Shown here piece by piece: positions 9,775-53,467 of a DNA stretch of 64,000 nt; position 1 is the stretch's first letter, and every line of letters begins with the position of its first letter. Below the pieces are notes generated by a model. It searched no databases. It had not been told where the DNA came from and worked only from the letters and a program-made list of their open reading frames with translations. Made by a program: the position numbers and the translations under genes. This DNA comes from Bacteroidales bacterium (lineage in GTDB: Bacteria > Bacteroidota > Bacteroidia > Bacteroidales > Bacteroidaceae). Location of the stretch: positions 124,001 through 188,000 of the forward strand of contig JAAYUD010000011.1 in NCBI GenBank assembly GCA_012517855.1, in the 5' to 3' direction.

Positions 9775-9821
9775 AATACCTACGTTCGGGATGAGAACTT
9801 AGGTATATCGTTGCTGTTTTG

Positions 9822-9859
9822 GCGGTCTATTTCAACAGAATCATGTTGAAATAGACCGC
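9822..9859 (+). terminator. Strong hairpin after the GH3 gene
   Basis: A perfect 16-bp stem (GCGGTCTATTTCAACA and its complement) with the loop GAATCA, followed by a T-rich stretch, 47 bases after the GH3 stop. It also marks the left edge of the decayed cassette that starts at about 9865. Confidence 0.8.
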
Positions 9860-9864
9860 TTTCT

Positions 9865-9956
9865 CTATTCGTACGTTTCCGCTACGATATTGTAACGAAA
9901 GGCATAATGCTCTGCCAAAATGCTTCTAAACGCTTTGTGAGACCTTTTTGAAAGGG
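9865..9956 (-). pseudogene. vapE-like gene fragment
   Basis: The minus-strand sequence aligns base by base with codons about 22-52 of the intact VapE gene at 51569, sharing for example AGCGTTTAGAAGCATTTT against ACGTTTAAAAGTATTTTT and GCGGAAACGTACGAAT against GCGGAGACGTACGAAT. One base is missing in the T-run and the match ends at a TAG directly after ACGTACGAA. The ATPase domain is absent, so no function remains. Confidence 0.75.
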
Positions 9957-10028
9957 TGAAATCTGTGAAACATACTGATGAAAGTTGGTTCATATCAGAA
10001 CGATTTTATGTTTTGTCCTAATAAAACT

Positions 10029-10118
10029 GTCGTTCCACATATGTGAGTTGATCGAATCACATATATGGAACGATCGACTCACATATGTGATTCGATCAAC
10101 TCACATATGTGGAACGAC
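10029..10118. repeat. Four-box palindrome (iteron) array, copy A
   Basis: Four 10-bp boxes, CACATATGTG at 10036, 10080 and 10102 and CACATATATG at 10058, lie at an exact 22-bp period with 12-bp spacers, flanked by GTCGTTC and GAACGAC. Nested in this, the outer 36 bases on each side form a perfect inverted repeat around an 18-base centre. Box spacing of about two helical turns suggests a site for a cooperatively binding dimeric protein. Confidence 0.8.
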
Positions 10119-10161
10119 AAAACTTGAATGAGTCAACAGAAATGCCTTAAATACGACAACG

Positions 10162-10360
10162 ATGATTCAATAAGATGTGTACAAAACACCTTCTCTCAGA
10201 GAAAAAGAATCGGATCACTTTCATGCGCGGGCAGTAAGCAAGGGAGTTTCAATACGGTGTGTACACCACAGATACCGAGTCAATACTTATTCGGCTGATA
10301 TACGAGGTCTACGATCCGCGTTTCATAACATACTAACACTAAGCAAGATAACCCCGTTTT
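10162..10360 (+). pseudogene. HU-like DNA-binding protein pseudogene, copy A
   Basis: Starting at ATG 10162 the frame reads MIQ-stop-DVYKTPSLREKESDHF and then HARAVSKGV, which is the start of the Bacteroidales HU-like DNA-binding family (typically M-x-Y-x-VY-x-TP ... HARVVxxGT). The frame has a stop at codon 4. About 130 bases present in copy B are deleted at an AGGG microhomology, which shifts the frame before the GSF region. The gene is dead. It is divergent from the vapE fragment across the box array. Confidence 0.65.
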
Positions 10361-10499
10361 GAGGTCCCGTAAATAAGCCGTGCCTGCGTACGCCGCTCAT
10401 AATCAATATGATAATATGACAGAAACTTTAGCGAAAATAAGAAGCGGCAGAACTATTAGGCTAACCAGAATAGCTCAAGTATTACAATCGTTGTTTCGG

Positions 10500-50495: not shown

Positions 50496-50864
50496 GCTTA
50501 TATAACTTATTTTATATCTCTCATCGTTTTTTATGTCGCTCTGACTTAGCTATTCGCCTTATGAATATAACATTTAATAAGCTTCTCAGGAAATTTTTAT
50601 AGTAGTTACTTCTTTTAATGATTACTTGAGTTCAAGATAAGAAATCAAAAGAAGGCGAGTTCATTTATCTTAACGACTTCATATTCTGTGAACGCATTAG
50701 GCTTGTTTTCTAAAAAATAGATCGCGGCAATGACTAAAAATGGAACAAAACAAAGATCGTCATTATTTCACTCTCCAGCATAACACCTTTTCCATTTGAA
50801 TAGCTTTTTTACCTTTCTTTTTATCCCGAACTGAAAATGAATTATTATGGCTTATGTTTCGCAA
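50496..50864. other. Spacer left of cassette copy B
   Basis: AT-rich, with no supported gene and no similarity seen to the flank of copy A. Confidence 0.4.
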
Positions 50865-50939
50865 AAAAAAAGTTTTAGAACTCTTTCCGTCACCTTATCT
50901 TATTGACTATGAGTGATATATACAGACATAACCTGTTTG

Positions 50940-51284
50940 TGGGACTCCGAAATGACATTATCTTGCTTATTATTAGTGTGTTATGAAACGTGGATCGTCC
51001 GCTTCGCTATGTCATCACTCGGTATCTGTCGTGTGTGGGGCGTATGGAAACTCCCTGGCGTGGGAAAATAGATACTGCTGTTGCGCGAACCTTCTGGCGA
51101 AAGTAGAGAATATATTCCACTGCACAACACTTGATATGCCATCCGATGTTGCTGATGAAGCATACTCCAAATCGTTCTTTAATTGGTCGTAGGTAATCAC
51201 GCCCTTACTTACTGCCCGCGCATGCTAGCGGTCGGGCTCTTCTTCCTTTGAAGATGGGCTTTTGTACACATCGTATTGAATCAT
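50940..51284 (-). pseudogene. HU-like DNA-binding protein pseudogene, copy B
   Basis: From ATG 51284 the minus strand reads MIQYDVYKSPSSKEEEPDR, a stop, then HARAVSKGVITYDQLKND and LEYASSATSDGISSVV, which is clearly the N-terminal half of the Bacteroidales HU-like family. A frameshift follows; the second half continues in another frame as PGSFHTPHTRQIPSDDIAKR. At least one stop and one frameshift show the gene is dead, although it is longer than copy A. Confidence 0.7.
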
Positions 51285-51327
51285 GGTTATCGTATTTAAG
51301 GTATTTTTATTGGTTTATTAAGGGGTT

Positions 51328-51417
51328 GTCGTTCCACCTAGGTGATTCGGTTAACTCACCCTTGTGAGTTGATCGACTCACCTAGGTGATTCGGTCAACT
51401 CATATAGGTGGAACGAC
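51328..51417. repeat. Four-box palindrome (iteron) array, copy B
   Basis: Four 10-bp boxes at 51335 (CACCTAGGTG), 51357 (CACCCTTGTG), 51379 (CACCTAGGTG) and 51401 (CATATAGGTG), exact 22-bp period, 12-bp spacers, flanked by GTCGTTC and GAACGAC. The total length of 90 bases equals copy A. The outer CAC/GTG of the boxes is shared, but the core is CTAG instead of ATAT. Confidence 0.8.
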
Positions 51418-51508
51418 ATCCTTCTAAAGACAAAGATACAAAATCTATCTGATATGAACCAGCTTTCATCCGTATGTCTCACAGACCTCAGGGGGGTACT
51501 TACAGATA

Positions 51509-51541
51509 TTTGGAAACCCCCTTTATGGTGTTATATATTTG
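51509..51541 (+). promoter_or_regulatory. Promoter of the VapE-like gene
   Basis: TTTG (51509-51512) and TATATTTG (51534-51541) are separated by 21 bases, matching the Bacteroidales -33/-7 pattern, 27 bases before the ATG at 51569. A G-run and a C-run (51491 and 51516) can pair around the -33 box. Confidence 0.55.
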
Positions 51542-51568
51542 CCGAAAATTGATTTAAAAAATTACATT

Positions 51569-52747
51569 ATGAAATTAAACACGCAAAACGGCATCGCTGC
51601 CGATGGGGTAAAAGAACCTTTTTTGAAAGGTATCATGGAACGTTTAAAAGTATTTTTGGCGGAGCACTACGACTTCCGTTACAACACCGTGGCGGAGACG
51701 TACGAATGTAGAAGGCATCAATCGAAACTTCATTTCGTTGAAGTAGACCGTCGCGTTCGCAACGATATCGTTTTATCGGCCTTGGAGGCTGGTGTGGACT
51801 GTATCGATCGGGATGTGATGCGTATCATCGAATCTTCATTCACTCCCTCCTATAATCCCATACAGGAGTACATCAACGTCCTCCCTCCGTGGGATGGCAG
51901 GGATCGGATTGAAGAATTGGCAGGGCGGATAAGCGACGACAAGTTATGGGCTATGGTATTTCGTCGGTGGCTATTGGGCATGGTGGCCCAATGGATGCAA
52001 AAGTGTACCAAATTCGGCAACAGTATGGTACCTGTATTGATACATAGACGTCATGGAACGAAGAAATCGTCTTTCTGCCGTATGCTGCTTCCGCCTTCGC
52101 TTCGTTCTTATTTTATAGAAGAGTTCGACACCGAATCCAAATCAGCTTCGAAAGTGATGGCGAAATTCGCCCTTGTCAACTTGGACGAGATTCGCAAGTA
52201 TTCTTTGTCACAAATGGAGAGATTGAAAAGTTTGATTCAACTTCCTCAAATAAATTTGCCCAGGCCTTATCGTGGCGGTTATCAACACTTGGAACGGATG
52301 GCTTCGTTTATCGGTACTTCCAACCATGCGGATATCCTTACCGATCCGACGGGAAGTCGCCGCTTTTTCCCGATCGAGCTGGAAGAGCGTATCGGTAGAT
52401 TCAAGATCTCGTACAAACAATTGTATGCGCAGCTCAAGACGGAACTGCGCGGTGGAGCCCGTTATTGGTATACACCTTACGAAGAGGCATTGATTACGGA
52501 ACGCAATAAACGCTTTTACCGTCGTCCGCACGAAGAAGGTCTTTTCTTCAGTCTGTTCCGTCTTCCCCATAAGGGTGAACGGGCAGAGGAACACAGCATT
52601 CATCTCTTGTATGAGAACATGCGCAAGGTCAGTCCGGCTACGATGCGCGACATTTCGATCAGTATGTTCGCCCGTCATTTGGCAATTATCGGCGTAGAAA
52701 GTAGACACAGTCATTCAGGTTCTGTATATTCGGTCATTCGTCTATGA
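51569..52747 (+). CDS. VirE/VapE-like P-loop ATPase
   Basis: 392 residues from ATG 51569; a TTG ten codons earlier lies inside the -7 box and is rejected. The N-terminal part (FRYNTVAETYECRRHQSKLH) is a primase-like region. PPWDGRDRIEELA precedes the ATPase core with Walker-A-like HRRHGTKKSSFCRMLLP (Lys in place of the second Gly of GxGKS), Walker B ALVNLDEI and the sensor region ASFIGTSNHADILTDPTGSR with RFFPIEL. The C-terminal helical domain is DUF3874-like. VapE proteins occur in phage satellites and islands; a replication or helicase role is inferred from family. Confidence 0.8.
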   Translation: MKLNTQNGIAADGVKEPFLKGIMERLKVFLAEHYDFRYNTVAETYECRRHQSKLHFVEVDRRVRNDIVLSALEAGVDCIDRDVMRIIESSFTPSYNPIQEYINVLPPWDGRDRIEELAGRISDDKLWAMVFRRWLLGMVAQWMQKCTKFGNSMVPVLIHRRHGTKKSSFCRMLLPPSLRSYFIEEFDTESKSASKVMAKFALVNLDEIRKYSLSQMERLKSLIQLPQINLPRPYRGGYQHLERMASFIGTSNHADILTDPTGSRRFFPIELEERIGRFKISYKQLYAQLKTELRGGARYWYTPYEEALITERNKRFYRRPHEEGLFFSLFRLPHKGERAEEHSIHLLYENMRKVSPATMRDISISMFARHLAIIGVESRHSHSGSVYSVIRL

Positions 52748-53467
52748 TCGTTATCAGGGCTGTTGTCCCAACAGAAAAACAGTGACAACTGCGAGACTCA
52801 GCTTTCATAAACAACTGTGTGATAGCTTGATAATGCTTTTTATAGGTCCCGTTTTAGCCTCTGATCCCTATAATATATTGATTAATAAGTGTTTGACGTG
52901 ACGGGAATGTCTGCAAAACTTGATTTCTTATTCCGAACTCAAATAATGATTGCATTTAAACCTTAGGCTGAAGTAACTCAGTACATAATTTGTTCTATTT
53001 TAAACATATATCGAGCTGAAGTACTGCTATCATAATGCTGATAATTAGGCAGAATTATAATTATCACTGGGATGTTACTTTATTTATAATAAAATTGACT
53101 TCATCCTTAGTTTTAGTATCAAGAAAAATCAGTGTCATGTCTTTATTGTTAATAATAATATTGTATTGTTATTAAATTTTTTATTATATAAGTATATTTA
53201 ATAAAATAATAAATGGTTTTATGTGCTATCTTTTTGTTATAGAGTTAAATTTATTATTATTTTTCCTCATTAATTTGATAATAAATTATTCTTATTTCCT
53301 TATTAATGTAATTAATAGTCTTTAAATAGTCTTTATGTATGACATTATATATGTCAAAAAGATAGATTATTAATTTTTCTAATAAAACAGAATGAATTTT
53401 GCGTAATAATAATTAAATTTGTATGAATTTTATTTTTGTTGTTTTAATTAATTAAAGAGAGACTTTT
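52748..53467. other. Very AT-rich leader before the second SusC operon
   Basis: About 0.7 kb without a gene. From 53130 it is mostly A and T and ends with TTAATTAAAGAGAGACTTTT before the SusC start. Confidence 0.5.

Follow-up and report, generated by a model that had tools for sequence, protein, structure and literature searches.

Private arrays of usually 22-bp phase directly upstream of HU-HIG genes in Bacteroidales, with dispersed copies in the chromosome

Two 90-base arrays and the elements that carry them

The window, i.e. the whole 64,000-nucleotide stretch of Bacteroidales DNA analysed here, contains two 90-base blocks, hereafter copies A and B (Table 1). As described in an earlier note made from the sequence of the window, both have the ends GTCGTTC/GAACGAC and four 10-bp boxes in exact 22-bp steps. 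The note assigned ATAT cores to copy A and CTAG cores to copy B. The former assignment holds for all four boxes of copy A, of which box 2 (CACATATATG) has one mismatched arm base, but CTAG is present in only two of the four cores of copy B, the boxes of which are, in order, CACCTAGGTG, CACCCTTGTG, CACCTAGGTG, and CATATAGGTG. Since the other two boxes of copy B are imperfect palindromes, the compensated change that had been read from them applies to two of four. A second type of palindrome sits between the boxes, with centres 11 bp apart and centred on GATC in copy A, and both copies are 11-bp ladders in which the two palindrome types alternate. The whole copy A block is a near-perfect 90-base palindrome (z = -13.47 for folding as ssDNA, and -7.63 for copy B). 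No Rfam match above the gathering score was obtained in the window, and an RNA family was rejected as the identity of the block on this basis.

Table 1. Features of the copy A and copy B elements in the window
Feature	Position	Strand	Remark
Copy A element, a derivative of the TIR element without genes, in the opposite orientation to copy B	9779..10454	-	Right limit approximate
VapE-like remnant, copy A	9838..9930	-	Residues 36-66, two stops; contig 133838-133930
Copy A array, four CAC-ATAT-GTG boxes and GATC palindromes	10029..10118		Orientation state O1/I2
HU-HIG remnant, copy A	10162..10248	+	Residues 1-29, one stop; tblastn with intact family protein
Left target-site duplication, TAATGATT	50616..50623		
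Left terminal inverted repeat, copy B element	50626..50648	+	3 mismatches to consensus
HU-HIG pseudogene, copy B	51002..51284	-	tblastn pieces, residues 1-69 and 174-217
Copy B array, four boxes at 22 bp	51328..51417		
Bacteroidetes -7 promoter-like element of the copy B HU-HIG gene, TATCTTTG	51431..51438	-	Directed into the array
VapE-like protein, 402-aa ORF called from TTG	51539..52747	+	PF05272 and PF12990
Right terminal inverted repeat, copy B element	52920..52942	-	2 mismatches
Right target-site duplication, TAATGATT	52944..52951		

Copy B lies in a terminal-inverted-repeat (TIR) element (50626-52942) with an 8-bp target duplication on both sides. An intact VapE-like gene is present on one side of the array and a divergent HU-HIG pseudogene on the other; the two tblastn pieces of the latter overlap on the DNA, and thus at least residues 70-173 of the HU-HIG protein are missing. 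Copy A, which the earlier note also took for a cassette, contains no intact gene of the element and lies between two convergent genes. Its extent was derived from blastn homology with other family copies (~9784-10454) and from an alignment of the ends, and its degenerate terminal repeat (~9779-9803), which exceeds the mismatch limit of the terminal-repeat search, was placed by eye. Because copy B lacks at least residues 70-173 and copy A retains ~29 residues of the HU-HIG protein, neither copy encodes an intact reader of its own array. Many other copies of the same family (F1, see below) likewise retain just the HU-HIG start and a short VapE piece.

Genome-wide, 27 terminal-repeat matches were identified; both repeats were located in copy B and at loci L041 and L052, and a single end in the others. 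The target-site duplication agrees at 8 of 8 positions in copy B. In L041 and L052, the only further copies with two ends, the match between the flanking bases is imperfect, and the duplication is therefore firm for copy B alone. No transposase was recognised by eye among the ORFs at ten terminal-repeat loci, a survey that was not exhaustive, and on this basis a classical IS was rejected as the driver. An intact F1 HU-HIG gene is present in L158; two pieces of the L045 copy, separated by 180 bp, match this gene at 95 and 98%. The VapE protein of L045 is 84% identical to that of copy B, yet the L045 boxes are of the ATAT type, which indicates that the core has changed within one element lineage.

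Array families in the genome of origin

When the genome (3.64 Mb, 114 contigs) was searched with the four-box pattern allowing up to three mismatches, 48 forward matches were obtained, compared with none for the backward-read control. The matches collapse into 41 arrays, two of which are the blocks in the window; as the search pattern fixed the 22-bp spacing, these 41 arrays cannot test the spacing itself. They were classified by flank and array similarity into F1 (21 copies, including A and B), F2a (8), F2b (5), F3 (4), and F4 (3). Several arrays are located at contig ends, as expected of repeats in a draft assembly. Genes for HU-HIG proteins of 205-208 aa start near arrays of F2 (L020 and L026) and F3 (L056) in this genome, and the F1 HU-HIG gene is found in L158 and L045. 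Neither F4 nor the CTAG type could be assigned an intact cognate HU-HIG gene.

Arrays upstream of HU-HIG genes

HU-HIG genes were gathered by protein similarity alone, in a first set and in an independent one. In the first set, mean identity at a lag of 22 was 0.619 upstream and 0.410 downstream of 35 of 42 genes, the other seven being left out because of too little upstream sequence. The independent set comprised 80 named loci, from which L198, L199, L200, L220, and L250 were dropped. Among the remaining 75 genes, the best lag was 21, 22, 42, 43, or 44 upstream of 63, compared with downstream of 9. With an array defined by an identity of at least 0.6 at a lag of 21 or 22, arrays were detected upstream of 56 of the 75 genes and downstream of none, and the threshold was reached in 0 of 347 regions upstream of other mechanically called ORFs at the same loci. 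The 19 genes below the 21/22-bp threshold include three with a 23-bp array; none is visible at the others.

These results indicate a general rule: most HU-HIG genes have, directly upstream, an array of their own, the phase of which is usually 22 bp. The earlier note had named random spacing in other cassettes as the finding that would speak against its fixed 22-bp phase; in this unbiased lag test, the spacing upstream of HU-HIG genes peaks at 22 bp, with minorities at 21 and 23 bp. The repeat sequence varies from gene to gene, CAC/GTG arms being frequent. The sequence comparisons suggest that each diversified HU-like protein in gut Bacteroidales may have its own private set of docking sites. 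The paired binding protein that the note had proposed is therefore supported in general form, with an HU-like protein and not VapE as the partner (56 of 75 HU-HIG genes with an array; VapE at 18 of 80 loci), but not for copies A and B, which lack an intact HU-HIG gene.

The three genes with 23-bp-phase arrays (L273, L274, and L275) encode shorter HU-HIG proteins (159-162 aa), and a phase of 21 bp is seen at some other genes; array phase may follow the HU-HIG protein subtype. The array upstream of the intact F1 gene of L158 has shrunk to one palindromic box (GTCGTTCCACATATGTGGAACGAC), reflecting either a real deletion or an assembly collapse, and L159 also has one box. The first ladder scan did not single out L056, L158, or L159, and the one-box regions of L158 and L159 were recognised by reading.

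VapE-like genes and the arrays

In copy B, L045, L026, and Phocaeicola vulgatus, the VapE-like gene adjoins the array on the side facing away from the complete or remnant HU-HIG gene, and the best-matching phage families of the VapE-like product are replication helicases and primases; PADLOC gave no match for this protein. This arrangement would fit an array that serves as an iteron origin for the VapE-like helicase, from which the element replicates or transposes with the HU-HIG protein only assisting, as would the terminal repeats of the element, the target duplication of copy B, and the outcome at the ten terminal-repeat loci inspected by eye, where no transposase was recognised. A replication initiator beside iterons is, however, a feature of some members only (copy B, L026, and P. 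vulgatus). VapE is optional, with its gene divergent within 700 bp at only 7 of the 18 loci that have it, as opposed to the array at 56 of 75 HU-HIG genes, which argues against the array being primarily an origin for VapE. We regard this origin as improbable, and VapE was rejected as a general partner of the array on the same count.

At two loci, L288 (P. sartorii) and L295 (P. vulgatus), a VapE-like gene and an array are present, but the 3 kb examined contain no HU-HIG gene. The alignment between these elements extends over 1577 bp at 86%, but not into the flanks examined.

Position of the arrays relative to the promoter

For 58 of 81 HU-gene arrays (L170 and L172, with uncertain starts, excluded), the 70 bp leading up to the array window contain the motif TAnnTTTG, which we take to be the Bacteroidetes -7 element; at seven control offsets, the counts were 3/78, 3/79, 5/81, 1/81, 2/81, 9/80, and 2/78. 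The array window ends at a median of 87 bp before the HU-HIG start codon. Judged from this layout, the position of the array is that of a putative roadblock operator in the leader. Because the array directly follows the -7 element, its occupation should block transcription of the HU-HIG gene itself, and autoregulation through the array is likely. Stand-alone (bare) arrays differ in this respect: the promoter element lies beside only 2 of 34 (the ends of seven of these arrays being set by eye), and autoregulation thus cannot be their role.

HU-HIG proteins and co-variation with the arrays

The proteins encoded beside the arrays of L026, L056, and L020 scored 94.7, 84.7, and 91.6 bits, respectively, with the PF18291 HMM, for which the curated cut-off is 26.2, and are thus members of the known HU-HIG family; here, their genes have private arrays, often with dispersed copies. 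Their Pfam matches are to HU-type domains only, with no nuclease. The predicted model of the P. vulgatus protein (pLDDT 92, pTM 0.65) combines an HU part with a helical domain at the C-terminus. The latter includes two short strands, and on the basis of this model we read it as a probable winged helix; the Pfam description of PF18291 includes a fusion of the HU fold with a winged helix, and the model fits it. In a sequence-profile comparison, residues 28-125 matched HU/IHF chains, and residues 124-198 matched a ribosomal eS25 chain. The best fold match of the model in the PDB was 4fmr, from the same species (TM 0.41, 12% identity), followed by HU/IHF chains, and PADLOC yielded just a 16-bit SoFic match over residues 134-185.

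The similarity of array units tracks that of the proteins (Spearman 0.39, permutation p 0.001) among 61 non-redundant genes. This Mantel test was restricted to 22-bp arrays of at least 0.6 and proteins of at least 150 aa, proteins of at least 85% identity having been removed (74 reduced to 61). By part, the correlation was 0.32 for the HU region and 0.40 for the winged helix, and the partial correlations were 0.30 (winged helix given HU) and 0.16 (HU given winged helix). Pairs with less than 30% winged-helix identity are near the null (0.408-0.436 vs 0.410), and the signal therefore comes from closer relatives. The co-variation of array and partner protein that the earlier note anticipated is thus seen, somewhat more for the winged helix, but it is moderate; it supports, and does not prove, a possible recognition code, and shared descent contributes and could suffice alone.

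Context and conservation of the dispersed arrays

Arrays lie mostly between called ORFs, the exceptions being those of L028, L097, and L111, which are overlapped by putative ORFs. Mechanical calls of both neighbouring genes were available for 22 bare arrays (a count of gene context that omits five contig-edge arrays and two HU-adjacent arrays); the context is tandem for 9, divergent for 7, and convergent for 6, which is close to random placement. Five arrays (L096, L099, L104, L107, and L108) are no more than 20 bp away from the stop codon of a called ORF. Both observations, together with the promoter element beside only 2 of 34 bare arrays, count against a classical regulon, in which the dispersed arrays would be operators for HU-HIG control of neighbouring genes. 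The F3 family would suit such a regulon, since all four of its arrays, three of them bare and one adjacent to the HU-HIG gene, are flanked by divergent genes. On balance, we consider a regulon unlikely, and the random-looking context and missing promoter elements led us to reject it as the main role of the bare arrays.

Among 14 F1 copies (13 of which lack an intact VapE gene; copy B and L033 not included), array identity is 0.905 as is and 0.942 when flips are allowed, compared with 0.708 for the adjacent flank (~190 bp), and in each of the 91 pairs the flip-allowed value for the array is higher than that for the flank. With copy B and L033 added (16 copies), the values are 0.870 and 0.900 for the array, as is and with flips allowed, respectively, and 0.699 for the flank. 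The HU-side promoter element is retained in 3 of 18 F1 copies. The F1 array therefore persists after decay of the genes and the promoter, through selection or gene conversion.

These data also bear on whether the arrays are REP/MITE-like selfish repeats that spread without a binding role, their link to HU-HIG being historical only. Terminal repeats, internal-deletion derivatives, the dispersed location mostly between called ORFs, and the short outer inverted repeats of some bare arrays (e.g. CTGCCTTTTC..GAAAAGGCAG and CATTCGTTT..AAACGAATG) would all be in keeping with such repeats. Against them stand the excess of array over flank identity in every F1 pair, with the adjoining promoter element mostly gone, and the fact that diverged HU-HIG genes keep arrays differing in sequence but similar in phase. 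Selfish spread is likely to be part of the F1 story; as a complete account, we doubt it.

The 90-bp F1 palindrome occurs in four outer/inner orientation combinations relative to its flanks (12, 3, 2, and 2 copies, with two B-type copies unclassed; e.g. 10029-10118 and L039). These states suggest nested inversions, with assembly error at palindromes as an alternative. The combinations, and the near-perfect palindromes that favour such events, would also accord with concerted evolution only, i.e. gene conversion or hairpin-mediated inversion giving both the array identity and the flip states. That process fails to explain the differently coded arrays upstream of diverged HU-HIG genes, and the flip states might also stem from assembly error; we judge it improbable as the only process at work.

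Dispersed arrays in other genomes

Arrays that share the code of an HU-HIG gene were also found elsewhere in the same chromosomes. In the genome of the window, the HU-HIG gene of L162 has boxes near GGTCrTGAcC, and three further arrays of that code are present. Patterns derived from HU-HIG genes gave further places in eight of nine named genomes, 44 in total, with none for the backward control; as places at contig starts of draft genomes may represent one locus twice, 44 is an upper bound, and only some of these places, counted from the match listings, read as full arrays. The numbers are 5 in P. vulgatus ATCC 8482, 4 in P. sartorii, 1 in Bacteroides xylanisolvens XB1A, 5 in B. congonensis, 4 in B. 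finegoldii, 6 in B. ilei, 13 in Bacteroides sp. 214 (plus two weak ones of other sequence), 6 in B. neonati, and 0 in P. massiliensis, where the pattern (L232) missed even its own array and is uninformative. In P. vulgatus ATCC 8482, the places matched lie near 781, 1595, 1772, 1864, 2283, and 2907 kb. Stand-alone arrays match the array of an HU-HIG gene in genomes G078 (L177), G040 (both types; L171 and L172), and G042 (L189). In G012, which contains many stand-alone arrays, a matching array was found at none of the four HU-HIG loci examined, and around 20 arrays examined from four other genomes, out to a distance of 3.5 kb, HU-HIG genes were likewise not detected.

The CAC pattern reveals further genomes with a code of their own: with up to one mismatch, it was found in 8 of 81 relatives, including the genome of origin. 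In its exact three-box form it is rare, being found in 6 of the 393 genomes of the order that were searched, again including the genome of origin; since the cores differ, this generic pattern understates the spread of the arrays. Relatives of the HU-HIG protein of P. vulgatus were found in 11 of 72,556 plasmid records, mostly from Bacteroides and Phocaeicola and one from Treponema. A related protein occurs in 5 of 50,697 phage records, all unannotated, on which count a phage origin was rejected.

Proposed role of the arrays and comparison with known systems

We consider it likely that the 90-base block is the cognate cooperative array and operator of an HU-HIG protein, and that this array is also kept at dispersed sites. 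HU-HIG dimers would occupy palindromes spaced by a helical turn, all on the same face of the DNA, and would bind cooperatively, bending or wrapping the 90-bp array; occupation just after the -7 element would block transcription of the HU-HIG gene itself. Copies of the private array elsewhere in the chromosome are bare or carried by small TIR elements, either with HU-HIG gene, array, and VapE gene or gene-less, and copies A and B are members of one such TIR element family. The same HU-HIG protein could bind these dispersed sites in trans, as anchors of a private nucleoprotein network and/or as a maintenance site of the element.

A more far-reaching possibility, which we put forward only tentatively and think rather doubtful, is that the pairs form mutually insulated address systems. 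Each HU-HIG paralogue would read only its private array, the dispersed copies, spread by HU-HIG/VapE elements, would form a chromosome-organising or invader-recognising network, and the codes would change together with the ~22-bp geometry fixed. If so, the HU-HIG expansion of this phylum would gain its function.

A 2017 survey of the HU/IHF superfamily by Burroughs and colleagues reportedly covers HU-HIG and assigns no DNA target to it, and we know of no target assigned to HU-HIG proteins. ParB-parS and similar pairs that organise chromosomes from dispersed sites consist of a protein and its own palindromic sites, some close to the gene and others at distant chromosomal positions, and the HU-HIG arrays resemble them in both locations; the HU-HIG sites, however, are alternating-palindrome arrays of 21-23 bp phase that differ between paralogues within one genome and, in the genome of the window, are linked to TIR elements. 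REP/BIME repeats are private dispersed palindromes paired with RAYT proteins, which are Y1 HUH transposases. The HU-HIG arrays likewise combine private dispersed palindromes with one protein family, but the recurrent protein is a DNA-binding protein with HU-type Pfam domains only. Plasmid iteron origins have direct repeats at 22-bp phase next to a gene for a DNA-binding protein, and the phase and the adjacent gene are alike; the HU-HIG arrays differ in being dispersed in the genome, with the VapE-like helicase at a minority of loci.

Within Bacteroidales, the BrickBuilt MITE of Porphyromonas gingivalis is likewise MITE-like, contains an inner array of tandem repeats, and is predicted to form long stem-loops; it has 23-nt repeats in 1 to 22.8 copies, no BLAST matches outside P. 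gingivalis are reported for it, and no link to HU-HIG was noticed there (PMC4596501). No description of HU-HIG arrays was found in a limited search of the open-access literature, with most subscription journals outside its scope. The HU-HIG family is known, and a DNA-binding protein with private dispersed sites is a known kind of system; the pairing of HU-HIG proteins with arrays is new as far as searched. Under the rule, most HU-HIG genes in this analysis have beside them a specific candidate target that can be tested. Public strains such as B. xylanisolvens XB1A and P. vulgatus ATCC 8482 are covered, so that experiments can directly address binding, autoregulation, and what the dispersed sites do. 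The many diverged protein-array pairs could, in addition, help to decipher the recognition code of a winged-helix family.

Other sequences associated with the arrays

Distal segments of F1 and F2a elements are ~81-85% identical at the DNA level despite their different arrays (L026, ~730-905 bp from the array; L039, L044, L048, L052, and L054), possibly as a result of modular exchange between element families. The three F4 arrays (L050, L055, and L057) have 177-212 bp in common at 92-98% identity and lie no more than ~420 bp from contig ends. In G012, a second MITE-like element (~159 bp, ends CAGGGCTGACGCATTA) was identified; it has an end adjoining five of the seven arrays examined and is also present upstream of an HU-HIG gene (L097, L098, L099, L101, L102, and L166). 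In L098, two ends of this element are ~1.3 kb apart. A preference of the element for insertion next to arrays is possible.
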